Positions 10,255-22,585 of a stretch of 64,000 nt of DNA are shown piece by piece. Both the position numbers and the translations under genes were made by a program. The notes under the pieces are model-generated. The model was not told the origin of the DNA, did not search any database, and worked only from the letters and a program-made list of their open reading frames with translations. Every line of letters begins with the position of its first letter. The first letter of the stretch is position 1. Source of the stretch: Blastococcus sp. CT_GayMR16 (GTDB taxonomy: Bacteria; Actinomycetota; Actinomycetes; Mycobacteriales; Geodermatophilaceae); contig NZ_SPQK01000012.1 of assembly GCF_004570875.1 (NCBI RefSeq), positions 62,001 through 126,000 of the forward strand, written 5' to 3'.

Positions 10255-10484
10255 CGCCCGTCCTGACCCCCAACTTGTCTTAGCCGACAGATTCCATCCA
10301 CTCGGCCTCGAGCTACAAGCGCGTCCTCCTCCCGGGTACGCGTGCGGGGGATGTGGCGCCTCACCGCGCGAAGCCATTCCGCCGTCCCAATCGCGCCCAC
10401 CCAGACGACCGAACGAAACCGTCGGCCCCCGCACCACGCCTCCATCACGCCAAGAAACTCGACAGGCCATGGCATGATGTTGCC

Positions 10485-11327
10485 GTGCCCTCACAATCAC
10501 GAATCATTCATGGCGACGATCTGTTATACAGATTTTTTCAAGAAGCTTTCGAGAACGAGGACGCACTCGAGTCTGGACTGACGCAACAACTACTGGGCAG
10601 TATGGCCATATGGCTTCCCGTTGACCTCTATGCCGCCTGGCCCATTCTCCTTCCCTGGGTCGTCCGGGACCCGAGCTGCCGCGGAAACAAGCGTATGGGC
10701 ATGCCCGACTCATGGTCGAGTCCGGATGCTGCGGGGTTTCTTCGTGATGACAACTCGTTGGTCAAGGCACTCCCACGGGCGTTGACGATACGCGGGAGTC
10801 GCGACTCTCGCTTGGCCAATGTTCGCATGGGCAGCGAGTTCGTCGCCGCCCACATCTGGCGACAAACAAGACTGCCTGGCCCTTTGGCGAGCCGACTACC
10901 AGAGCTCAACTCTTTCGTGCCCAATATCGTCTGGCTTCCCCGCCAGATTGCGAAGTTGACGGACCGGGAAGGCAGCCTGATCCAGCAGGCCCTCCAAGCT
11001 ATGGCCGTGCAAGTTTACCGACATGCCCCAGTCAATCAGGCCGTACGCGGCCACGCCGAGCGCAGTTGGGATCTCTTGCCCGAGCCCGCGATCACTGTGC
11101 GTCCAGTCGAAGCAGCATCATTGAACTGGTTCATCCCCACGGCAGGCTTCTACCGCACGCGAGAGAAGCGACTACGAACGGTGATTAGGGCCTTGATGCT
11201 CCTCGAGGAGGGATTACCACTGGACGAGAAGGTCGTCACAACCAGGTATACGCGGGGCCTGCCTTTGGTTGAGGCTGAGGCCCGCCGAAGGCTTCTTCGG
11301 CAACTGACATCCTTCTATCCTGGCTAG
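10485..11327 (+). CDS. Uncharacterised protein next to vsr (defence-island gene)
   Basis: 280 residues from the GTG at 10485; the frame is open further upstream without a credible start. No membrane segment or enzymatic signature is obvious. Recognisable features are Trp/Pro-rich stretches (WLPVDLYAAWPILLPWVV), WRQTRLPGP, NIVWLPRQIAKLTDREGS and a basic C-terminus (EARRRLLRQL). It lies 51 bases before vsr and converges on the methyltransferase operon. From position I infer an accessory or effector of the restriction-modification system. I recall unassigned DUF-type proteins of this size beside Z1 loci, but cannot confirm that here. Confidence 0.65.
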   Translation: MPSQSRIIHGDDLLYRFFQEAFENEDALESGLTQQLLGSMAIWLPVDLYAAWPILLPWVVRDPSCRGNKRMGMPDSWSSPDAAGFLRDDNSLVKALPRALTIRGSRDSRLANVRMGSEFVAAHIWRQTRLPGPLASRLPELNSFVPNIVWLPRQIAKLTDREGSLIQQALQAMAVQVYRHAPVNQAVRGHAERSWDLLPEPAITVRPVEAASLNWFIPTAGFYRTREKRLRTVIRALMLLEEGLPLDEKVVTTRYTRGLPLVEAEARRRLLRQLTSFYPG

Positions 11328-11378: not shown

Positions 11379-11801
11379 ATGACGGATCGGTTCGTGCCCA
11401 CGGCGAAGGGCAGTCATCTTGCGGCCAGAAAGTCCACAGACACCGAGCCCGAAGTGCGCCTCCGCAAGGCGGTGCATTCACTAGGTCTAAGATTCCGCCT
11501 CCATCGGCAGGTGATTCCTCGCTGCACGCCGGACTTCGTCTTTCCCGCACATCGCGTCGCAGTCTTCGTCGATGGATGCTTTTGGCACGGTTGCCCTGTT
11601 CACGGCAGGACACCAAGAACGGGCCCGAACGCCGAGGTGTGGTCGCGCAAAATACAAACGAACCGCGACCGGGACCTCCGAAACGCGCAAGATTTGCGGT
11701 CGGCGGGATGGAGGGTCTTTAGAGCTTGGGAGTGCGACATCCGTCGCGACGTCATGGATATCGCCATTCGAATTGAGAGGTTAGTGCGTGATTCCGATTA
11801 G
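11379..11801 (+). CDS. vsr: Very short patch repair (Vsr) endonuclease
   Basis: 140 residues, ATG start. Family hallmarks are all visible: EPEVRLRKAVHSLGLRFRLH, CTPDFVFPAHRVAVFVDGCF followed by WHGCPVHG, the W.RKI..NR.RD helix, and GWRVFRAWECD at the C-terminus. Vsr nicks 5' of the T in T:G mismatches produced when 5-methylcytosine deaminates, protecting sites made by a cytosine-5 methyltransferase. The matching methyltransferase is the next gene, on the opposite strand. A possible extended -10 (TATCCT, 11366-11371) lies 7 bases before the ATG, suggesting a leaderless transcript. Confidence 0.92.
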   Translation: MTDRFVPTAKGSHLAARKSTDTEPEVRLRKAVHSLGLRFRLHRQVIPRCTPDFVFPAHRVAVFVDGCFWHGCPVHGRTPRTGPNAEVWSRKIQTNRDRDLRNAQDLRSAGWRVFRAWECDIRRDVMDIAIRIERLVRDSD

Positions 11802-12009: not shown

Positions 12010-13890
12010 TCAGACGCCGGTTGGGCACGACGTAGCCTGCTGTCCGAATGAGCAATTCCTTAGCAGCGGGCATCCTTGACAGTCCGGCGCGCTGGACGTG
12101 CAGACAGACTGCGCGAGCTGCCGTACGGCAGCCATGCGCAAAGGCGCCTCCGCACCAATGCCGACGAGGCGCGCTAGATCGACCCGACCATCGGTGAGTG
12201 AGTTCTGCCGATCCGAAGTTGTCCCAGCAACTCGGGCAGCAACACGGATCACCGCAGCCGTTATAAGTAGCACGTCTTGGTTCGTGAGAACACGGAAAAG
12301 GCGAGCTTCAGCGGCTCCGAACGCAACCGCCGAGGCCACTTTCGAAGCTGCATCCCAGTCGACGCCCTCTTCGCATACGGAAGACAGGCGAAAGAGCGCC
12401 TTCTGACTGGCGGGGCGCGGAAGGCATAACCCTACTTTCTCGAGCGCCTCAGCCCCTAGGCGGTCGACGCCCCTGACCACCTTCATCGCACGGCGCAGGT
12501 CTTGGAGCGGCGTTCGGGCCGTCGCCAAAACGACCGCCATGACTGCTGCCGCGGGTGTCATCTCAGGCCCCGGGAACATGAACCAGTCGTCGCCCGATCG
12601 TAAGTCATCCGCCCATCTCGCGAGAGCTGCTCCAATGGTGCTCTGCTCGACCCCCGGGTGGCCTAAACAGGCTCGACCTGGACCGGGCGGGCGAAGGGCA
12701 CAGGCGGCAGCCATGCCCAACAACGGCGGGACGGCGTTCCCAATCTGTCGAAAAGCATCGCTGCGAGTTCCTGAGAAGCGGAACCTATCGGGAAACGTCT
12801 GAATCCGAGCCGCCTCGCGAACCGTGAGCGTCCGGTGCTCTTGAGGGTGGATGTACCAGTACCCGTCCTTGGCGATGTGCGCAGTGATTGAACGGCTGAG
12901 CTGGTCCCAGGCTAGCCGCTTGTATTTGTCGTCGAAGGTCTCGGACTTGTACCGGCGCAGCCTTTCAGGGATGGCCGAGTAGAGCGTCGTCGCATCCATC
13001 AGTTCGAAGACCTGCCGGTCGTCCGGTCGCACTGCCCTAGTCATGTGATCGTGGACGACTGTCCGCGGCGCACCGGACCGAAGGCGGCGAGCAAGTGACG
13101 ACAGACCGACCGGAGCCTGGTACGACAGTTCTCGTGCACCCGTCGTGTCCTTGAGGGGCGGTAGGTCAGCGATTGCCTGCTCAAGCGTCACCTGCCGGAC
13201 AGTTTCCTTCGGCCACTTGAAGCCTATGCCGTCATTACGCGCGAGGACAATCAGGCGCTTCCGATGCTGCGGCACTCCGTATCGCCAGGCATCGACCAAC
13301 CGGACTTCTGTGTTGTACCCCTCGTGCTCCAAGCGGTCAACGATAGTACGAACCACCAGAAGGTCGTCCCCGAGAGCCATATCGGGCACGTTCTCCATCA
13401 GGATGGCACGGGGCCGAAGGCGCATGGCCACATCTAGGAATGCGGCCCACAATTCCTTGCGATGATCGTGCTCGTCGCGCGTGCCGGCCTCAACAAGGCT
13501 GCGGATTTTGCTTCGCCCCGCGCGACTGAAAGGCTGACATGGGGGACCACCAGCAACCAGGTCGATTGGGACTTCCTCAAGCATCGCAACGAGTTTGTGG
13601 CGCGCGGCCGGGTCACCGAGGTCTAGGTCCAGCGCGAGACCAGGCATGTTGTGCCGATGTGTCTCGAGCGCTCGTCTATCGTGGTCGACGGCGGCGGCGA
13701 CCGTCCATCCTGCGTCCTCGAGTCCCAGGCTCAAACCTCCCGCGCCCGAGAATAGGTCGACAGCTAGCCGCTGCCCGGCTAAGACTCTTGACTTGGCCCA
13801 GTCCACAAAGGTGGCTTCCGTAGCGTGTTGTGGATGCGGGGGGAGATCGAGCGGGCTGCTTCGCTCGATGCGTACTCCGTAATGACTCAT
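12010..13890 (-). CDS. Cytosine-5 DNA methyltransferase with C-terminal EndoIII-like Fe-S module
   Basis: 626 residues. Residues 40-400 hold the m5C-methyltransferase motifs: FSGAGG (47-52, SAM binding), GGPPCQPFS with nucleophile C118, ENV (166-168), QHRKR (208-212) and GNAVPP (384-389). Residues 430-613 form an extra alpha-helical module ending in C597-x6-C604-x2-C607-x5-C613, the exact [4Fe-4S] spacing of endonuclease III. The position matching the EndoIII catalytic Asp (VDTHIFRV) reads ITAAVIRV (543-550), and no LPGVG hairpin is seen, so glycosylase activity is doubtful. It modifies host DNA for the restriction locus. Vsr is convergent 209 bases away. Confidence 0.9.
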   Translation of the reverse strand: MSHYGVRIERSSPLDLPPHPQHATEATFVDWAKSRVLAGQRLAVDLFSGAGGLSLGLEDAGWTVAAAVDHDRRALETHRHNMPGLALDLDLGDPAARHKLVAMLEEVPIDLVAGGPPCQPFSRAGRSKIRSLVEAGTRDEHDHRKELWAAFLDVAMRLRPRAILMENVPDMALGDDLLVVRTIVDRLEHEGYNTEVRLVDAWRYGVPQHRKRLIVLARNDGIGFKWPKETVRQVTLEQAIADLPPLKDTTGARELSYQAPVGLSSLARRLRSGAPRTVVHDHMTRAVRPDDRQVFELMDATTLYSAIPERLRRYKSETFDDKYKRLAWDQLSRSITAHIAKDGYWYIHPQEHRTLTVREAARIQTFPDRFRFSGTRSDAFRQIGNAVPPLLGMAAACALRPPGPGRACLGHPGVEQSTIGAALARWADDLRSGDDWFMFPGPEMTPAAAVMAVVLATARTPLQDLRRAMKVVRGVDRLGAEALEKVGLCLPRPASQKALFRLSSVCEEGVDWDAASKVASAVAFGAAEARLFRVLTNQDVLLITAAVIRVAARVAGTTSDRQNSLTDGRVDLARLVGIGAEAPLRMAAVRQLAQSVCTSSAPDCQGCPLLRNCSFGQQATSCPTGV

Positions 13891-14033: not shown

Positions 14034-15032
14034 TCATGACCCTTGGACGTGCCCGCGCCAAGACGCGTCCTCGGGGCGCGTCGCCGTCAGCCAGTAGCTG
14101 CACGCGGACATGGCGAGCGAATATCGAATGTTGCTCACGCCCGCCGGCAACCCATCAGGAAATGAGCTGGCAGTAAGCCGGGGGAAATCCCCATCTACGC
14201 GATACAGCTCCTCCGCCAGAACTCGGTATCGCCGCTCGTGGTGATGAGCGTGTGCTGGACTATAGCCACGATCAGCAATCGCAGAGAGGAATACGTGTAA
14301 CGTGGCAGGGTCAAGCCGCAACAATGCTCGGATTCGGTCCACCAGCACCGGCAACGTGTTCGCGGCTAGGTCATCTCGCTGAAGATGGAGGCTAAAGAGG
14401 TAGAGTGTGCCGACACTGGGCTCATCGAGTTGCAGTAGCCCGTTTATCGTGTGGCTGACATTTCCCACCGAACCAACCGCCGACGCCTTCACTTCCACCG
14501 AATAGGCAGGCCACTGGAAGTCATGCGTTGACGGATCCGCACCGGTCCACCCTGCGACTGTCTCTGCGTTTACATCAATCCATCGCAAAAGGAACCAGAG
14601 CTCACCAAATAGTCCGACAGCGTCCTCCGGACTGAGTGCGGAGGAGTCCATTCCCCAGAACCAGCGCCATCTAACAAGGGCGTCCGCAACCGCATCGAGC
14701 CTTGCCGGGGGTGATATTGGGCCAAGCGTGCTACACAGTTCGGCCGCGACCGCAGCGAAAGTCGAAACGCCTGCCTCCGACAAGCACGTAAGGTCGAGAT
14801 AACTGGCGTCAACTCGCTCGGGTATGCGGTTGACTGTGACCGTCATCGATAGGCCGTGGGTGGTCTGAGGCGGCGCTTCACTGCCGGGCGGCACCTGGAT
14901 GAGCAGATGGACCCGGCGCTGCGCATCAACGGCCGCCCAAAGGCCGACACCCATCTCGCGCGCCTCGAGCAAGGCCTCCTCGCGTGGAGAGGGCAACTCC
15001 CTCCAGATTCGGACGAGCTCTTCGGGCGTCAA
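14034..15032 (-). CDS. PD-(D/E)XK motif protein (DUF4420-like) of a Z1 restriction system
   Basis: 332 residues from a TTG whose last two bases overlap the Z1 gene stop (TTGA), so it is translationally coupled. The diagnostic segment runs GLFGELWFLLRW, then HDFQWPAYSVEVKAS, giving the Asp and E-x-K of a PD-(D/E)XK nuclease site. Further HLQ and YLFSL strands resemble the DUF4420 family, known partners of Z1 and MORC-type ATPases in predicted restriction-modification operons. It is the likely DNA-cleaving subunit of the locus. The cut site and recognition sequence are not readable. Confidence 0.85.
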   Translation of the reverse strand: MTPEELVRIWRELPSPREEALLEAREMGVGLWAAVDAQRRVHLLIQVPPGSEAPPQTTHGLSMTVTVNRIPERVDASYLDLTCLSEAGVSTFAAVAAELCSTLGPISPPARLDAVADALVRWRWFWGMDSSALSPEDAVGLFGELWFLLRWIDVNAETVAGWTGADPSTHDFQWPAYSVEVKASAVGSVGNVSHTINGLLQLDEPSVGTLYLFSLHLQRDDLAANTLPVLVDRIRALLRLDPATLHVFLSAIADRGYSPAHAHHHERRYRVLAEELYRVDGDFPRLTASSFPDGLPAGVSNIRYSLAMSACSYWLTATRPEDASWRGHVQGS

Positions 15033-17707
15033 CGTCGGCCTTGGGGGGCTGAGACGTATTCGACGGTGGCATCACTTGAACTTGCGGGAAACTGAATTTG
15101 ATATGCGATAACCGTCGGGGCGCCCACGGAATCGACGTACAACGGGATACGAGTCGAACTGCCTGACCTGGGCTGCGATTGGGCACTGATGGGGTACAGA
15201 ACGAGGTACCCCTCGCGGGCGTCGCGTTGCATTCGCAACGCTGCGGCGAGCGTGTCGGCATTTCCGTCTCCGACGGCGGCCCGCGCCGCGGCAATCGCGG
15301 ACGCTTCCAGCCCGAAGAGGTCGTCCTCGGGTTCGGTGACGACACCGAGACTAGTTGGGTCCTTAGCCAACCTCGTACGCGCCTTGAGCGCAATCTCTGG
15401 CCGGCCGACGACCCCGAGGTCATCGCTCCCCAGCTCAGGATTTTCGGCCTGCGCGGCTGACAAGAGGACTCGCCAACGGGTGAGCTCCCGGTTGCGTACC
15501 TGGAGCTGAATGTAGTCGAGCACACTCTGAGGATCGATACTCGGTTGCCTGAACACGGGGAAGTCGCCTAGGAACCGCAAGACCTGCTGGGCTGGGATAT
15601 CGGTCCAGAACGGCCTGCCGCTATCCGTCTGCGGACTCCCAAGAGAGTTCAGGAATTCTCTGGTCACCTTCAACGACTGACTGATAGTTGTCCGATCATC
15701 GATGATACGAACAGTCTGCACGCGCTGTCCGGAGTAGTCCAGACTGAGCTCTTCCGCGGCACGCATCTTATTCGGTGCAGTCACCAGCATCGTCGGATGC
15801 ATTCGAACCTTCGGGACGAACTCGCGCGGAGTTAGGCGTTGCGTCTCATAAAGGGCGATCTGATTTCGAAGTTCTTGCTCGGCAGTCGCGAGGTCGTGAA
15901 AGCAAGAAACGAGAAGCTGCGTGCTGTAGAGGCGAGTGAGGTCAACGTAGCGGCCGCGATAGCCGAACCAACGACCCATCTGCATGAGCGTGTCATAATA
16001 TAGGGTTTCCCGAACATAGAAGGACGTAATGAGTCCTTCGATTGTCACCCCCCGGCTAAGCTTATTTCCCCCAACGAGGACGGCCTTAAGGGTCGGCTCG
16101 GCATCAAAATCGGCAGTGTCGAGGTGGTCAGAGTTAAGCACCCGAACCGGTATGCCGTCCCGAAGTAGGTCATCGAGATATGGCTCAATGGACTCAAACG
16201 CTACGTCCAGGCCTACGTCCAAGCTCACGGTTACAGGACGGAATTCTCTGTTCCACCTGTCGACAAAGGCGGGCCGTGAGACCTCTCGCTCGTAGCGCCA
16301 CTGCTGGCGGATCACTGCCAGCTCATTGCGGATGTCCTCTGCCAGCGGATTTTGAACGGCACGCCGCATGTCCGTGTGCACGAGCATGGTGCACGGCTCG
16401 TCCCGCCCTGCTCGGTGCAGCCAGCCGGCCGCACCGAGCAAATAGTCAACCAAGGCCTGCCTCAGGGAGGGCGGTACCGCAGGGATGAACGTGTCCCGCT
16501 CGCCGCGAGGGGGGACCACATAGTCGATTTCATGATCGGGAACAATCTCTATGACATCTAGTGCCTCAACAGTGATCTCCCCTTCGCCGGCGAGTCGGTC
16601 GCGGCCGAATAGTCTTTCAGCGCCAACGTAGTTCCCCCCCGGGGGAGACGGAAGACTGATGATGAAGTCACGCGGGAATAGGTCGTCTCCGCCATCGGCA
16701 TCCGACGCCGAGGGGTCGATTAGAACATTGGCGAAAGGTGTTGCAGTGTAGGCAACGTAGCTGCTGCGGGCGAAAAGGTTCAGCAACTGGCGAATACGCA
16801 GGTTAATTGCGCTTGGATCAAGCTCGTCGGCGGCTGGGGCGTCCCCATCGTAATCGTCCGGATCGAGATCCGTTAATTCCGCCACGGCCCTGTTACCGCC
16901 TGTGTTGACTGACGCCTGGTCCGCCTCATCATCGATTATCAGTACCGGAACGTGGTCAGGGACTCGGCCGCGCATCCAAGCAAGGAGCCGATCCAATCTG
17001 GATTTATTCTTTTTCAGGACAAGGATAACGTGGTCATTCCCCTGCAGGAGAGCTCCATTCACGGCCGCGGCGTCGAAATCACCCCACGGCTCGCCGTTCG
17101 TCATCCACACCCAACGATTGCCCGGCGTCGGCAGCCCCACACCTATCGTGTCTTCATGCCCTAGGTCTCGCTGAAGGCGTCTCTGGGTCTGCATGCGAAG
17201 CGAGTTGTGTAGGCCGGACAAGACTATGACAATCCTGTATCCCGCATCGGCCGCCTTCGCGATAAGGGCGCTGAAATTGGCCGTCTTTCCACTTTGGACA
17301 TGCCCAACCACGAGTCCGCGAATGTCGAATGGGTCGGCCGCGCCGGGATCGCCCAAGTGGGCGAGCACCCTATCGCTGGCGATGTCGAGACTGTCGATCT
17401 CGAAATCCATTCGACGCAGGTCATGAGCGAGAAATCGCCGCTGCCGGAGCCAGTAGTAGCCCTCGGCCGAGTTCCAGTCTTGGTACCACGGCTGAGGGCC
17501 GCCGGTACTGGAGAACTCCGTTGGCCTGAGGACCTCAATCGTCGTAGAAGTCTGCTCGCGGTAGCGCTGAAGGACGCGGTCGTGCATCTCAGCGGGGATG
17601 AGGTGCCCCGCCTCGGCGAGCGCCCCTTCGTCGGACAGTCCGCGTGTGCTCATGAGCACACGCAGCAGCACGACGAAATCCTCGACGTCATCACCAGCCG
17701 AGTTCAT
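15029..17707 (-). CDS. Z1 domain-containing SF2-like helicase/ATPase
   Basis: 892 residues from ATG 17707, preceded by GGAG; a TTG six bases upstream is less likely. Walker A is GHVQSGKT, Walker B is LIIDDEAD, and later motifs are NKLSRGVTIEGL and QMGRWFGYR (arginine finger region). The C-terminal third is the Z1 region. Known Z1 proteins occur only in predicted restriction-modification operons with a GHKL ATPase, a PD-(D/E)XK protein and a cytosine methylase, all present here. It overlaps the upstream ATPase gene by 17 bases. A role as DNA translocase/remodeller before cleavage is inference. Confidence 0.9.
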   Translation of the reverse strand: MNSAGDDVEDFVVLLRVLMSTRGLSDEGALAEAGHLIPAEMHDRVLQRYREQTSTTIEVLRPTEFSSTGGPQPWYQDWNSAEGYYWLRQRRFLAHDLRRMDFEIDSLDIASDRVLAHLGDPGAADPFDIRGLVVGHVQSGKTANFSALIAKAADAGYRIVIVLSGLHNSLRMQTQRRLQRDLGHEDTIGVGLPTPGNRWVWMTNGEPWGDFDAAAVNGALLQGNDHVILVLKKNKSRLDRLLAWMRGRVPDHVPVLIIDDEADQASVNTGGNRAVAELTDLDPDDYDGDAPAADELDPSAINLRIRQLLNLFARSSYVAYTATPFANVLIDPSASDADGGDDLFPRDFIISLPSPPGGNYVGAERLFGRDRLAGEGEITVEALDVIEIVPDHEIDYVVPPRGERDTFIPAVPPSLRQALVDYLLGAAGWLHRAGRDEPCTMLVHTDMRRAVQNPLAEDIRNELAVIRQQWRYEREVSRPAFVDRWNREFRPVTVSLDVGLDVAFESIEPYLDDLLRDGIPVRVLNSDHLDTADFDAEPTLKAVLVGGNKLSRGVTIEGLITSFYVRETLYYDTLMQMGRWFGYRGRYVDLTRLYSTQLLVSCFHDLATAEQELRNQIALYETQRLTPREFVPKVRMHPTMLVTAPNKMRAAEELSLDYSGQRVQTVRIIDDRTTISQSLKVTREFLNSLGSPQTDSGRPFWTDIPAQQVLRFLGDFPVFRQPSIDPQSVLDYIQLQVRNRELTRWRVLLSAAQAENPELGSDDLGVVGRPEIALKARTRLAKDPTSLGVVTEPEDDLFGLEASAIAAARAAVGDGNADTLAAALRMQRDAREGYLVLYPISAQSQPRSGSSTRIPLYVDSVGAPTVIAYQIQFPASSSDATVEYVSAPQGRR

Positions 17708-19130
17708 GTGCAATCTCCGGATTCTTCTCGCGCAGTGCGCGCACGATGTCGGTCAGGGCGTCTGCGCGCCCGGCATGGGCGGCTGCCGCCTCGAGGGCGG
17801 GGCGCAGATCCGCAAGCGCAGCCGGGCCCTTAGGTTGAGGCGAGTCAAAGCCATCCCCACCCGGCGGTTTTGTGGGTGTAGCCCCCGCGGACGAACGAGG
17901 GGGGGTGCCTGAGTCGCTATGCGTCTCGGGTGCGCGCGGTGTCGAGTCGCTCGAAGGGCCCGCCGATGCGGTAGGGCTCGGCCGTGGCGGCGTTGCGCCG
18001 GTCCTCTGTCGAGTCGTCCGGTAGCGACGGTTCGCAGCCGCTGCCACCCGGCTGATGATCGGCTCCAGCGCATCGCGGAGTTCCCCAGGAAGCCTCACGC
18101 TCGCCTTTGAGATGTTGATTCCGAACGCATGGTCGAGGTTGGGCGCAAAGTCAAGTGCAACTCGAGCAAGTTTCGTATGCTCATCGACAGTTCGGATTCG
18201 GCTCCAACCCCCCCACTGGACAAGCCGGTTCGCGCGATAAACGTAAAACCCTTGCTGCCGGTTCCACTTGAGAGGCCCGGATGCCCGCTGCCAAGCGTTG
18301 GTACTAGAGAATTCCTGCCGCTCAGGAAGAACGTAGGGACGGATCCGAACAATCCCGGTTCCCCCAACAGTCGCGAGCGTGATGTTGGTTTCCGGGTGCG
18401 CATCAGTAGCCTTCTCGTCCCGACAGAACGGATCCCAGGGCGCGACATCCTGGCCATTTACCCTAAGCTTCAGTCGGCGCCCCGGTGCCTCGCCCGCTAG
18501 GAACCGATGGAATACCATGCCGAGGTGTTCTTCGACTTCCTGCGCGGCACTGAGCATTCGCCTGTGCGCCCACGTGCCGTACGGGTCTTTGTAGTCGAGA
18601 ACCCGGTCGAGGTTTTCCCACAACACGACGGTGCCGGGAGCTGCCTTCAACGGCTCAGTAAGGTGGGCAGGACGGTCGGAAGGCTCGACCACGATGGCTT
18701 CCCACCTGTTGGTGCGCGCGATGTGGTCAAGGTCTAGACAGCGTGCCTCTATCCGAGCTCGCTGCAGTCCCCTGCGGGACGCTACGGTAACGCGGCGACA
18801 CTGCGATGTAGACGCCGATTTGAGTCCGAAGCCGAACTTGCCGAGGTCGTCTTCGGAATAGGCGCGCTCGGATCCGTAACGCAATGACTCGGTGAGCGTG
18901 CCCGCGTCCATTCCAGTGCCGTTATCTGCGATACGTATCCAGGATCCTTCACTGTCGAACCGTAGGTCGACGGCGACAGTCGTGGCGGCGGCAGCGATGC
19001 TGTTGTCGACAAGGTCGGCGACCGCTTGAGTGAGCTCGTACCCGACGTCGCGCAGGGACTCGATCGTTCGAGACGCCGACGGGACGACCGGCTCGACGCG
19101 CAGCCGTCTTGGTGAGGCCGTGGCCGCCAA
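17691..19130 (-). CDS. GHKL ATPase (MORC/MutL-like) of a restriction system
   Basis: 479 residues from a TTG preceded by GGGAG at good spacing. The ATP site is clear: N-box AVADLVDNSIAAAA, G1 DNGTGMD and G2 GKFGFGLKSAS. A transducer region with the lysine-bearing FGINISKASVRLP follows. Residues about 375-435 are a Pro/Ser/Thr-rich linker, and a short helical tail carries the C-terminus. Such proteins are the bacterial relatives of MORC ATPases and MutL in restriction-modification operons. ATP-driven dimerisation would clamp DNA for the Z1 and nuclease subunits. It is the first gene of the operon. Confidence 0.9.
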   Translation of the reverse strand: MAATASPRRLRVEPVVPSASRTIESLRDVGYELTQAVADLVDNSIAAAATTVAVDLRFDSEGSWIRIADNGTGMDAGTLTESLRYGSERAYSEDDLGKFGFGLKSASTSQCRRVTVASRRGLQRARIEARCLDLDHIARTNRWEAIVVEPSDRPAHLTEPLKAAPGTVVLWENLDRVLDYKDPYGTWAHRRMLSAAQEVEEHLGMVFHRFLAGEAPGRRLKLRVNGQDVAPWDPFCRDEKATDAHPETNITLATVGGTGIVRIRPYVLPERQEFSSTNAWQRASGPLKWNRQQGFYVYRANRLVQWGGWSRIRTVDEHTKLARVALDFAPNLDHAFGINISKASVRLPGELRDALEPIISRVAAAANRRYRTTRQRTGATPPRPSPTASAGPSSDSTPRAPETHSDSGTPPRSSAGATPTKPPGGDGFDSPQPKGPAALADLRPALEAAAAHAGRADALTDIVRALREKNPEIAHELGW

Positions 19131-19309: not shown

Positions 19310-22300
19310 TCACAGCGCCGCTGACTCCACCAACCAACAGAGCGCGTTCACACCCCGCAGTTGCTGGGGCGTGCGCACGGGTGCATCAAGCAGGACCGGG
19401 CTCAGTACCGCGACGGCCAGCGCCTGTGCCCGCGACACCGCCACGTTCAGTCGGTCGAGGTCGTAGAGGAACGAGACGCCGCGGGGCGCGTCGTCGGCGC
19501 TGGTACTGGTCATCGAGTAGATGACCACTGGCGCCTCTTGGCCCTGGAACTTGTCCACGGTGCCGACCCGCGCGCCGTCGGGCAGCGCCGCCTTGATCAG
19601 CGCGACCTGGGCGTTGTACGGCGCCACGACGAGCACCTGCTCTGGGCCGATCCGGGACTCGACACCCTCATGGTTCCGCCACGTCGCCCCCTGCACCGAC
19701 TGCCACAGGCGCGCGACGACGTCCGCCTCCTGCTGGCTCTTGTCCGCCGCCGTCAGCACGTGCCGAACCGGGTGCACCCGCAGCCCGCTCCCCGACAACG
19801 GGCCCTCCCCCAGCACGGCAACCCGCTCGCGACCCGGGGCCGCCTCGAGCCGGCCCTCGTAGGCCAAGTCGGACACGAACGCGGTCAGGGCCGGGTGCAT
19901 CCGGTACGAGCGGTCGAGGAAAACGCCGCGCTCGGGCGGGATGGTGGCGTGTCCGTCGAGCAGGTGCTCGAGCGCCGAGGCGCCGGACTCGCCCGGGTGC
20001 ACCGCCTGACTCGGCTGGGCCAACTGCTGTGGGTCGCCCAGCAGCACCATCGACCGCGCACCCCGCGCCACCGCCACCGCGTTGGCCAGCGAGAACTGCC
20101 CGGCCTCGTCGACCACCAGCACATCAACCGCCTGCGCCACGTCCGCGCGCGTCCAGAACCACGCCGTCCCGCCGACCAGGTTCACGTCGCCGACCAGAAG
20201 CTTCCGCGCGACCACCCCGTTGTCGCTCGACCAGGCCACGCCTGCCGAACCGCAGTGCTGGCTCTCGTCGCACTTCTGCAACGCGGGCCGCCCGACCGCC
20301 TTCAGCACGTTGCCGATGACCGCATGCGAGGTCGCCGTGACGCCGACCTTCTTGCCGGCGTCCAGCAGCTTCCGGATCAGTTCCGCGGCGGCGGTCGTCT
20401 TGCCGCTCCCCGGCGGGCCCTGGATCGCCAGCACTTCGCCGTCCAGAGCGAGCCCGAGCCGCACGATCGCGTCGGTCGTCGACTCCCCCTCACGCAGCTG
20501 CGTTCCCATGGGAACGCGCCGCTGGACGAGCGCCTGCCCGAGGCAGTCGCGGCCGGCCAACACGTCCTCCCCGGTCGCCTGGATCGCCTCGCGCAGGCTC
20601 TTCGTGTTCAGCGGACCGCCCGGTCCCAGACCGCGCGGTCGCGGCGCGGCAGCCGTCGTCTTGAGCACCAGTCGGCCGGCCACCGGGTCCAGCTCGAAGA
20701 CCGTGCCGACCTTCTTCGACGAGTCGACGTCCAGGGCGTCGTCGCCGATCGACAGCTTCGTGTCCTGCACCGGGAACGTGTACTCGTACAGGCGGCTCTT
20801 CTTCTCCGCGCCGCGGTCGACCGGCTCTGACAGCCCGCCGAGAGCGGCGCCGTCCGCGATGAGCGCCTCCTGGTCCAGCGTCTTCAACCGGAAGACGTCC
20901 CACCAGGCCGGGCGATCCTCGCGGCGGTGCCAGCCGACGAGGTCGCCGAGCAGCTGGTGACCGGCGTCGTGCAGCCGCCCGGCCAGCTCCAGCTCCGCGG
21001 CCTCGACGTCGCTGATCGGTCCAACGGCCGTGTCCGACTCCAACGCAGGACGTTGCTGAGGCCCGTGCAGAGCCTCGAGTTCGGCGCGCTGCTGTTCCAG
21101 CCACTCGTGCAGCTCGCGGGTCGAGTCAACGTCGTCCTTGTTGTAGGACTCGATGTCGTCGAGCTTCTGCTGGTCTCGGTCGTCGAGCCACTGCTCGTAC
21201 ATCAGCACGCTGCCGAGCCCACTGGCCACCGCACCCTCGTGCGACCGGCCATAGAACGCCTCGACCTTCTTGATCGAGTACGACTCCTTGCTGATCCGCA
21301 TCGACTGCCGGACGACGGGATAGAGGTCGACGAACCGCTCCTCGCGCAGCAACTGGTCCAGCTCCGCCTCGCGGACGCCGTAGCCGCCGGTCAGGTTCTT
21401 GAGCGCGGTCACCTCGTAGGGCGCGTAGTGGTAGACGTGCATCGACGGGTCGGCCTGCGCGGCGGAGACGATCCGGTCGACCAGGTCGGCGACCATCTGC
21501 TGCTCGGCGGCCCGGTCGTGCGCCCACAGCGGCGTGAACGCGCCTGCCCGATCCCCGAGGCCGGCGAGGTACTCGATGCCCGCGCCGTCCTCGAACCAGG
21601 GGTCGCCCTCGAAGTCGAGATAGAGGTCGCCCGGGCTCGGCGGCGGCAGGCGCAGCAGTCCGAGGCCCGGCTGCGGGTCGAGCAGCGTGCGCGACGGCTG
21701 CCCCGTGGTCCGCTCGCGGAGCTGCTCCGCCGCCTGCTGCTGTAACCGAGTGCGCGCGTCGGCACCGATGCCCGACGACTGCAGAAGCTCAGGCGACGCC
21801 GTCGCCAGGTCGTACAGGGTCGCGATGCCGGCCGCCCGCAGCGCGTCCCGGTGGTCGCCGCGCATGAAGGCAACCAGTCCGAGGTCGTCCGCCTGCCGCA
21901 GCTCGGTGTTGCAGCGCTCGGCCCAGCGGCACTGCTCGCAGTAGCCGATCGGCGAGGGACCGGTCTCCGGCGGCGCATCGACGAACGCCTCCAGCCGGGC
22001 CCGCGCCCGGCGGGCGTAGGGAGCGACGTCGATCAGCCGCCACGGCCGCGAGACGCCGTCCCCGGTGACGACGTGGATGAACTCGGGGGCCACCCCCTGC
22101 AGCACCGTCAGCCGTTCGGCGTAGGTGGCCATCTGCAGCAGCGCGGCGACCTTCAGCTTCCGTGCCAGTTTGGTGTCGGCGATCTCGTACGACCAGTCCC
22201 CGAAGGCGGAGCGGCCAGGCACCTTCAGCAGGAAGTCGGACTGCCCGCCCCAGGCGCCGTCGAAGAACGTCCCCTGGTAGACGACGTCGACGCCGCGGCG

Positions 22301-22585
22301 CATGGCCTCGACCGTCTCGGCCTCAGCCTGACGGCGTCCAGGAGCGTCGAAGACGGTCTCGATCTCCGTCACCGACTTGCCGGACACCTTCAACGACGCC
22401 AGGTACTTCTCCTCGTGCGCCATGCCCCGGTCGAAGACGAACTGCAGCTCCTCCGTCGTCTCGACGTCCGGCGCCGCCCACTCCCCCGTGGCCACTCCGA
22501 GGTCGAGCCACGTCAGGTGCCGGCACTCCTGATGGGCGGTCAGGTCGGTCGGGCTGAGCACCAGCCGCCCGTCGAGTTGCTGCAT
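19310..22585 (-). CDS. TM0106-type RecB nuclease fused to SF1 helicase
   Basis: 1091 residues. Residues 1-240 are a Cas4/RecB-like domain with a Cys at the N-terminus (HQECRH) and YCEQCRWAERC, the ligand set for a [4Fe-4S] cluster, plus D and E-x-D/K-like positions. Residues 310-500 are an RNase H-like exonuclease region (LYLDFEGDPW, YNKDDVDSTRELHEW). The C-terminal half is a DNA2/UPF1-type helicase: QGPPGSGKTT, VVDEAGQ, LLGDPQQLAQP, SYRMHPALTAFV, TVDKFQGQEAPVV, LNVAVSRAQ. It lies just upstream of the GHKL gene on the same strand, separated by 179 bases. DNA repair or defence is likely. Confidence 0.88.
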   Translation of the reverse strand: MQQLDGRLVLSPTDLTAHQECRHLTWLDLGVATGEWAAPDVETTEELQFVFDRGMAHEEKYLASLKVSGKSVTEIETVFDAPGRRQAEAETVEAMRRGVDVVYQGTFFDGAWGGQSDFLLKVPGRSAFGDWSYEIADTKLARKLKVAALLQMATYAERLTVLQGVAPEFIHVVTGDGVSRPWRLIDVAPYARRARARLEAFVDAPPETGPSPIGYCEQCRWAERCNTELRQADDLGLVAFMRGDHRDALRAAGIATLYDLATASPELLQSSGIGADARTRLQQQAAEQLRERTTGQPSRTLLDPQPGLGLLRLPPPSPGDLYLDFEGDPWFEDGAGIEYLAGLGDRAGAFTPLWAHDRAAEQQMVADLVDRIVSAAQADPSMHVYHYAPYEVTALKNLTGGYGVREAELDQLLREERFVDLYPVVRQSMRISKESYSIKKVEAFYGRSHEGAVASGLGSVLMYEQWLDDRDQQKLDDIESYNKDDVDSTRELHEWLEQQRAELEALHGPQQRPALESDTAVGPISDVEAAELELAGRLHDAGHQLLGDLVGWHRREDRPAWWDVFRLKTLDQEALIADGAALGGLSEPVDRGAEKKSRLYEYTFPVQDTKLSIGDDALDVDSSKKVGTVFELDPVAGRLVLKTTAAAPRPRGLGPGGPLNTKSLREAIQATGEDVLAGRDCLGQALVQRRVPMGTQLREGESTTDAIVRLGLALDGEVLAIQGPPGSGKTTAAAELIRKLLDAGKKVGVTATSHAVIGNVLKAVGRPALQKCDESQHCGSAGVAWSSDNGVVARKLLVGDVNLVGGTAWFWTRADVAQAVDVLVVDEAGQFSLANAVAVARGARSMVLLGDPQQLAQPSQAVHPGESGASALEHLLDGHATIPPERGVFLDRSYRMHPALTAFVSDLAYEGRLEAAPGRERVAVLGEGPLSGSGLRVHPVRHVLTAADKSQQEADVVARLWQSVQGATWRNHEGVESRIGPEQVLVVAPYNAQVALIKAALPDGARVGTVDKFQGQEAPVVIYSMTSTSADDAPRGVSFLYDLDRLNVAVSRAQALAVAVLSPVLLDAPVRTPQQLRGVNALCWLVESAAL

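Follow-up and report, generated by a model that had tools for sequence, protein, structure and literature searches.

In a 64,000-nucleotide stretch of the Blastococcus sp. CT_GayMR16 genome (contig NZ_SPQK01000012.1; hereafter, the window), translation, Pfam, NCBIfam, profile, and fold analyses indicate that a gene on the minus strand (12010..13890) encodes a 626-aa protein in which a cytosine-5 (m5C) methyltransferase is fused to a MutY-like domain. In our judgment, this protein is probably the methylase of a MORC/Z1 locus, and its C-terminal part a former MutY domain that has lost excision, has kept its [4Fe-4S] site, and acts as a structural module docking DNA and/or the GHKL ATPase and Vsr.

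The available excerpts of a 2025 study (PMC12000561) term the role of the [4Fe-4S] cluster in MutY-type proteins enigmatic, because cluster and catalysis are entangled. A large natural family in which the cluster site appears to have been selected, the catalytic Asp discarded, and the cluster site dropped in one clade could serve as a natural experiment on the roles of the cluster beyond excision. In addition, the fusion would add an overlooked part to actinobacterial defense loci and offers a testable link of MutL-like ATPases, Vsr, and methylation.

A complete methyltransferase precedes a MutY-like domain

Residues 1-400 (12691..13890, minus strand) are predicted to form a complete cytosine-5 methyltransferase, as the original prediction had proposed, based on Pfam, structural matches, and motifs. 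Residues 44-395 match PF00145 (E = 6.3e-56; 190.6 bits versus a cut-off of 22), the translation places the nucleophile C118 (13537-13539, minus strand) within GPPCQPFS, and the catalytic motifs, C118 among them, do not vary across the 41 rows of alignment A2. In the full-length fusion model (pTM 0.88), the methylase part matches M.HaeIII (1dct; Z 30.8) and M.HhaI (2i9k; Z 28.5) among solved structures. The methylase part comes closest to eukaryotic enzymes of the DNMT1 type (Z 37.3; 28% identity). A frameshift or a misjoining of two genes was rejected, as a single frame spans both parts in the relatives listed, with one TAA in G348 (L027).

The extension predicted to follow the methylase is present, although it comprises ~210 residues rather than the ~180 first proposed; it was modeled from residue 412 to 626, with high confidence to about 621. 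Using profile, AlphaFold2, and VIA-align results, we assign residues 412-621 (12028..12657, minus strand) to a MutY-like (HhH-GPD) domain that is predicted to be glycosylase-dead. A profile built from 67 such domains matched a MutY chain in the PDB (5kn8; E = 2.3e-6; positions 5-207 of 216), and AlphaFold2, run on the 67-domain alignment, gave a mean pLDDT of 94.9 for residues 412-626. VIA-align of this domain model placed E. coli MutY first (1mun; Z 16.0; 197 aligned; rmsd 4.2), followed by the thymine-DNA glycosylase 1kea (Z 13.8), which we take to be MIG, EndoIII (2abk; Z 12.9), and ROS1 (Z 9.3). In the Foldseek ranking, EndoIII leads (1orn; E = 3.5e-4), and structures of thymine-DNA glycosylase, MutY, and ROS1 follow, among others; even the best of these E-values is modest, and the query TM-scores range from 0.48 to 0.66 among the matches listed. 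The superposition on HhH-GPD proteins that had been set as a test was, thus, obtained from the predicted model, and the proposed HhH-GPD/[4Fe-4S] type stands, with MutY rather than EndoIII as the nearest relative.

Comparison by hhalign with 26 actinobacterial MutY-type sequences chosen by motif gave 90.3% for the window's branch and 98.7% for the distant branch (59 of 71 and 10 of 16 sequences, respectively, passing the program's filter), and the domains of a cysteine-less clade (see below), taken alone, had no match to these 26 sequences. Among the 67 domain members, 55 matched NCBIfam mutY and 19 matched Pfam EndIII_4Fe-2S at E ≤ 0.1. When the window extension was searched alone, no Pfam family was found at E 0.1 (EndIII_4Fe-2S was sub-threshold, E = 2.5), NCBIfam returned a weak mutY match (E = 0.00082) far under its cut-off, and a single-sequence phmmer search of the PDB yielded only chance matches and MutY loops at E of about 2. 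Given these near-empty Pfam and weak NCBIfam results for a single sequence, standard annotation would miss the domain.

The catalytic Asp is lost and the predicted [4Fe-4S] site is retained

We aligned the best 80 of 211 related contig stretches, 23 loci from 397 genomes of the order, and the window, which, minus five identical sequences, gave 99 rows. A search for the same fusion in other genomes had been suggested, and it was found: all rows contain the domain. Two separate alignments agree that T544 (12259..12261, minus strand) occupies the place of the MutY catalytic Asp. This column reads G33 T23 S22 N17 V2 Q1 A1, with Asp in 0 of 99 rows; the loss originally read from ITAAVIRV in the window (residues 543-550) is, hence, family-wide and no quirk of this copy. 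At the place of the catalytic Glu of MutY, the window row has no Glu, while Glu is found in 15 of the 16 distant-branch rows (14 by pattern and L028 by eye), L033 having Val. Asp is, thus, gone from 99/99 rows and Glu additionally on the window's side; the order of these losses is inferred on a tree without an outgroup. The stretch of the window row aligned to the HhH motif of MutY (LPGVG type) has no GVG and, in this alignment to MutY rather than EndoIII, no Lys; the domain model still has two helices and a short turn there. The loop between the first two cysteines of the window (TSSAPD) contains no basic residue, which, together with the missing HhH glycines, weakens the case for a DNA-binding role. 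The original suggestion that the module may sense or hold mismatched DNA is, accordingly, speculative.

The cysteine pattern of the predicted [4Fe-4S] loop (C597-x6-C604-x2-C607-x5-C613; residues 597-613; 12052..12102, minus strand) was confirmed in the translation exactly as claimed. Conservation of its four cysteines among homologues had been named as a test; all four are found in 87 of the 99 aligned proteins, the window included, and the other 12 have none of them. These 87 cysteine-bearing rows share nine invariant positions within the domain (412-622), i.e., R549, R553, G568, G577, C597, C604, C607, P608, and C613, and Pro occupies position 602 in 71 of them. W436, conserved in 98 of the 99 rows, occupies the place of a MutY Trp and is presumably the counterpart of MUTYH W103. 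Since the four cysteines recur in so many proteins and the whole domain, beyond the loop, matches MutY by profile and predicted fold, the extension is not a chance product. Likewise, chance cysteines or a zinc knuckle are ruled out by the domain-wide match to MutY and by the joint loss of cysteines and arginines described below.

The alignment, read with the excerpts of PMC12000561, identifies R549 and R553 (residues 549-553; 12232..12246, minus strand) as counterparts by spacing of MUTYH R241 and R245. According to these excerpts, human MUTYH variants without the cluster include R241W, R245H/C, C290W, P295L, and C306W, and the counterparts by spacing of these sites here are R549, R553, C597, P602, and C613. 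The excerpts further report that cluster loss in MutY and MUTYH accompanies loss of activity and DNA binding, that N238 and R241 of MUTYH connect the cluster to the catalytic D236, and that the variants N238S and R241Q retain the cluster, yet are inactive. N238 and D236 correspond to A546 and T544 in the fusion protein, i.e., both counterparts are lost. We suggest that the cluster is bound and that the domain is inactive. As judged from sequence and modeling, the C-terminal domain is a MutY domain, predicted to be glycosylase-dead and kept by selection for its [4Fe-4S] site.

One clade has lost the cluster site

On the tree of the methylase part, the 12 cysteine-less rows form one clade (SH-aLRT 99; one change). 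Among them, R549 is found in 1 of 12, and R553, N563, and G568 in none. The joint loss of cysteines and arginines in one clade is the pattern expected of a lost metal site, and it also shows that some version of the domain's function can do without the cluster. In the loci of this clade (L102-L106, L110-L116, and L119), a GHKL protein and mostly a regulator-like protein replace the MORC, Z1, and DUF4420 genes. The one GHKL protein scanned, that of L111, has two HATPase domains; a Pfam scan of the regulator-like protein returned no family, and L113 has no regulator-like match within its fetched flanks.

The window locus and the genomic context of its relatives

Three genes lie upstream of the fusion gene on the minus strand and are transcribed in the order GHKL ATPase, Z1 helicase, DUF4420 nuclease, fusion gene. 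The first encodes a MORC/MutL-like, MzaB-like GHKL ATPase (17691..19130; PF13589, E = 2.9e-25; MzaB 253.8 bits, below the cut-off of 850), the second a Z1-domain, MzaC-like SF2 helicase/ATPase (15029..17713; PF10593, E = 7.6e-60; MzaC 444.8 bits, below the cut-off of 1500), and the third a predicted PD-(D/E)XK nuclease of the DUF4420/MzaD-like type (14034..15032; PF14390, E = 1.9e-51; MzaD 105.8 bits, below the cut-off of 420). These three genes overlap at their ends in an operon-like manner, and the locus brings together the GHKL ATPase, SFII/Z1 helicase, RE-fold nuclease, and DNA methylase that define a MORC/Z1 restriction-modification operon. A gene for the mismatch endonuclease Vsr (11379..11801, plus strand; TIGR00632, 125.8 bits versus a cut-off of 97.85) is convergent with the fusion gene.

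Directly upstream of the MORC-like gene, 19310-22585 (minus strand) encodes a RecB-like nuclease of the TM0106 type that also has a helicase part (TIGR03491, 281.8 bits; AAA_12), and past vsr lies an ORF of 324 residues (10353-11327, plus strand) with no Pfam, PADLOC, or NCBIfam match. The window gave no match in either an Rfam or a tRNA scan. A MutY-type gene distinct from the fusion lies elsewhere in the genome (G000:C22). Its score of 183.5 bits is under the TIGR01084 cut-off, as are the scores in all 20 matching genomes. The genome search revealed no MzaA on the window's contig and none over the cut-off, and no AIPR in the genome.

In the class, 17 of 394 genomes matched the full profile at E ≤ 1e-100, G940 among them over residues 2-391 only, and in the phylum 6 of 296 did so; the two samples overlap, and each includes the window's own genome. 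A domain-alone search of the 397 genomes of the order placed its 24 best matches (E ≤ 2e-9, window included) in frames of at least 638 aa. A standalone form of the domain was, accordingly, rejected for these best matches; the six of the weaker matches that were inspected (L034-L039) look like MutY and carry VDTN. We also rejected phage or plasmid cargo. At E 1e-3 and 1e-2, a tblastn search with the domain matched none of 72,556 plasmid and 50,697 phage records, and two among the best 80 of 557 viral-contig stretches (L154 and L155) reach residue 613. L155 also has Z1, NRE, AIPR, and Vsr homologues and so could be an island of the host. Among viral structures, none was close (best E 0.17).

Using blast seeds within fetched flanks, and with the window's row entered by hand, we detected a GHKL ATPase near the fusion in 91 of the 99 loci, Vsr in 75, and both in 71; three of the eight loci with no GHKL match (L045, L057, and L078) are short or cut. 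As a control, 78 viral-contig loci with other m5C methylases contained GHKL in 11 and Vsr in 18 cases, a contrast that is indicative only, because these loci are viral and shorter (mean 11 kb), with methylases judged unfused by match extent only. By blast seeds, 67 of the 99 rows have Z1/DUF4420 modules, 12 have DISARM-like DrmA/DrmB, 12, those of the cysteine-less clade, have the pair of a GHKL and a regulator-like protein, and 8 are unassigned or mixed. On the tree, the module switches at least 5 times, while a GHKL ATPase and Vsr accompany most of the loci.

The fusion lies in loci with DISARM-like genes (DrmB and, in most, also DrmA) and AIPR in L041, L049, L065, L066, L071, L257, and L259; PADLOC detected DrmA in L065 and DrmB in L071, the remaining DISARM-like labels being assigned by blast. 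AIPR was found within the fetched flanks of 61 of the 80 contig loci (the best 80 of 211). L068, whose fusion protein is the same as that of L259, encodes another protein matching MzaA and MzaB. In L126/L266 (from 5933; 584 aa), the C-terminal domain is cut to roughly its cluster-bearing half and the gene lies beside the GHKL and regulator-like pair and Vsr.

Fusions of the window type and of the distant type occur together in 10 of 120 loci, which represent six distinct places, and in five of these places Vsr lies between the two. In L074, L094, L095, L109, and L268, the paralogous fusions of both main branches have opposite orientations and flank Vsr, with DISARM-like genes (L274-L277 are the same regions as L074, L094, L095, and L109); L048 has both types in a different arrangement. 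Perhaps each fusion of such a pair serves one strand of an asymmetric site.

Proposed role and alternatives

We propose that the fusion protein serves a MORC/Z1-type restriction locus as its modification methylase and that its C-terminal domain descends from a MutY-type glycosylase, base excision having been lost and the [4Fe-4S] site kept. The cluster would most likely be structural, holding a rigid, helical module for docking whose position relative to the methylase is predicted to be defined. This module may bind DNA beside the target site and/or dock the GHKL (MutL/MORC-like) ATPase and Vsr, and Vsr would perform the T:G repair of which the dead module is incapable. Gene company points to such a docking role; the occurrence of the same fusion beside different effector modules, with at least 5 changes, counts against it.

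The domain might instead be a decaying passenger with no function beyond the folding of the fused protein, a reading that we regard as unlikely. It is indeed divergent, its identity to the window row being 21-40% (67 rows) versus 37-59% for the whole protein (41 rows), L126 retains little beyond the cluster half, and the G940 match lies in a 453-aa frame. Decay is difficult to reconcile with the nine residues invariant among the cysteine-bearing rows, with the presence of the domain in every aligned row, and with a loss of the cluster site that was concerted, not random.

Somewhat less probable again is that the dead MutY domain is a reader, which would flip or probe bases at or near the methylated site without excising them, distinguish methylated, unmethylated, or T:G-deaminated DNA, and signal through its [4Fe-4S] face whether the MORC/MutL-like ATPase should spare, restrict, or summon Vsr. 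If so, the protein would join a writer to a retired eraser turned sensor, the eraser fold being that of ROS1 and other plant 5mC demethylases.

Ranking behind the reader, and also improbable, is a redox switch in which oxidation of the cluster alters DNA affinity, toggling methylation or restriction under stress. The cluster site is kept, as are the Arg and Trp at places that the excerpts of PMC12000561 propose for a charge-transport path in MUTYH; however, an invariant cluster site is equally expected with a purely structural cluster, and one clade has lost it.

An active glycosylase that uses other chemistry to remove T from T:G or m5C, as a fused counterpart of the MIG-methylase pair, is very improbable: the predicted fold and the cluster site are intact and nearly all distant-branch rows retain the Glu, but Asp is missing throughout, the window also has neither the Glu nor the HhH glycines, and its genome already has a separate MutY-type gene, with Vsr next door.

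Comparison with known systems

The C-terminal domain of the fusion protein shares with the N-terminal catalytic domain of MutY and MUTYH the helical fold, the spacing of the [4Fe-4S] loop, the Arg pair, and the Pro around the cluster. Unlike MutY, the fusion domain has no catalytic Asp and, in the window, no Glu and no GVG in the HhH motif; the protein is fused to a methylase and ends soon after the loop, the C-terminal domain proper to MutY being missing. EndoIII (2abk) and the thymine-DNA glycosylase 1kea belong to the same superfamily, but are active, separate enzymes. MIG is likewise tied to an m5C methylase, in the MIG-methylase pair of Methanobacterium.

The window locus corresponds to the MORC/paraMORC restriction-modification operon type described in 2008 (Iyer; PMC2292703), which, in the portion of that paper used here, combines the same five components (MORC, SFII helicase, RE-fold nuclease, cytosine methylase, and Vsr) and gives a helicase motif, DThhQXuRhFG, that DTLMQMGRWFG of the window's Z1 protein fits. 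The original prediction was right to place Vsr beside the methylase; the design is less unusual than it supposed, given this operon type and the adjacency of dcm and vsr in E. coli. The main text of PMC2292703 does not mention MutY, HhH, glycosylase, endonuclease III, iron, or cysteine, and the main texts of PMC8011034 and PMC12458937 do not mention MutY, HhH, or glycosylase. We found no description of a methylase-MutY fusion in the open-licence papers searched, which is weak evidence of novelty.

With regard to the MZA anti-phage system, the window has homologues of MzaB, MzaC, and MzaD, all below the NCBIfam cut-offs, and does not qualify as an MZA system, which takes MzaA to MzaE above those cut-offs. 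In the related CglI system, the Z1-bearing N-protein is an ATPase working with a separate nuclease protein, according to the excerpts of PMC4267653. The GHKL ATPase, regulator-like protein, and Vsr of the cysteine-less clade resemble the HEF_HK/Response_reg_2 modules with C5 methylases and Vsr in the sections of PMC8011034 considered here, a likeness by gene company to modules of which they may be members. Finally, an island of Corynebacterium diphtheriae BH8, as presented in part of PMC5379612, shares with the window a Dcm-like methylase, a Z1 helicase, and DUF4420, but the methylase there is joined to an Xre HTH domain, whereas that of the window carries a MutY fold.
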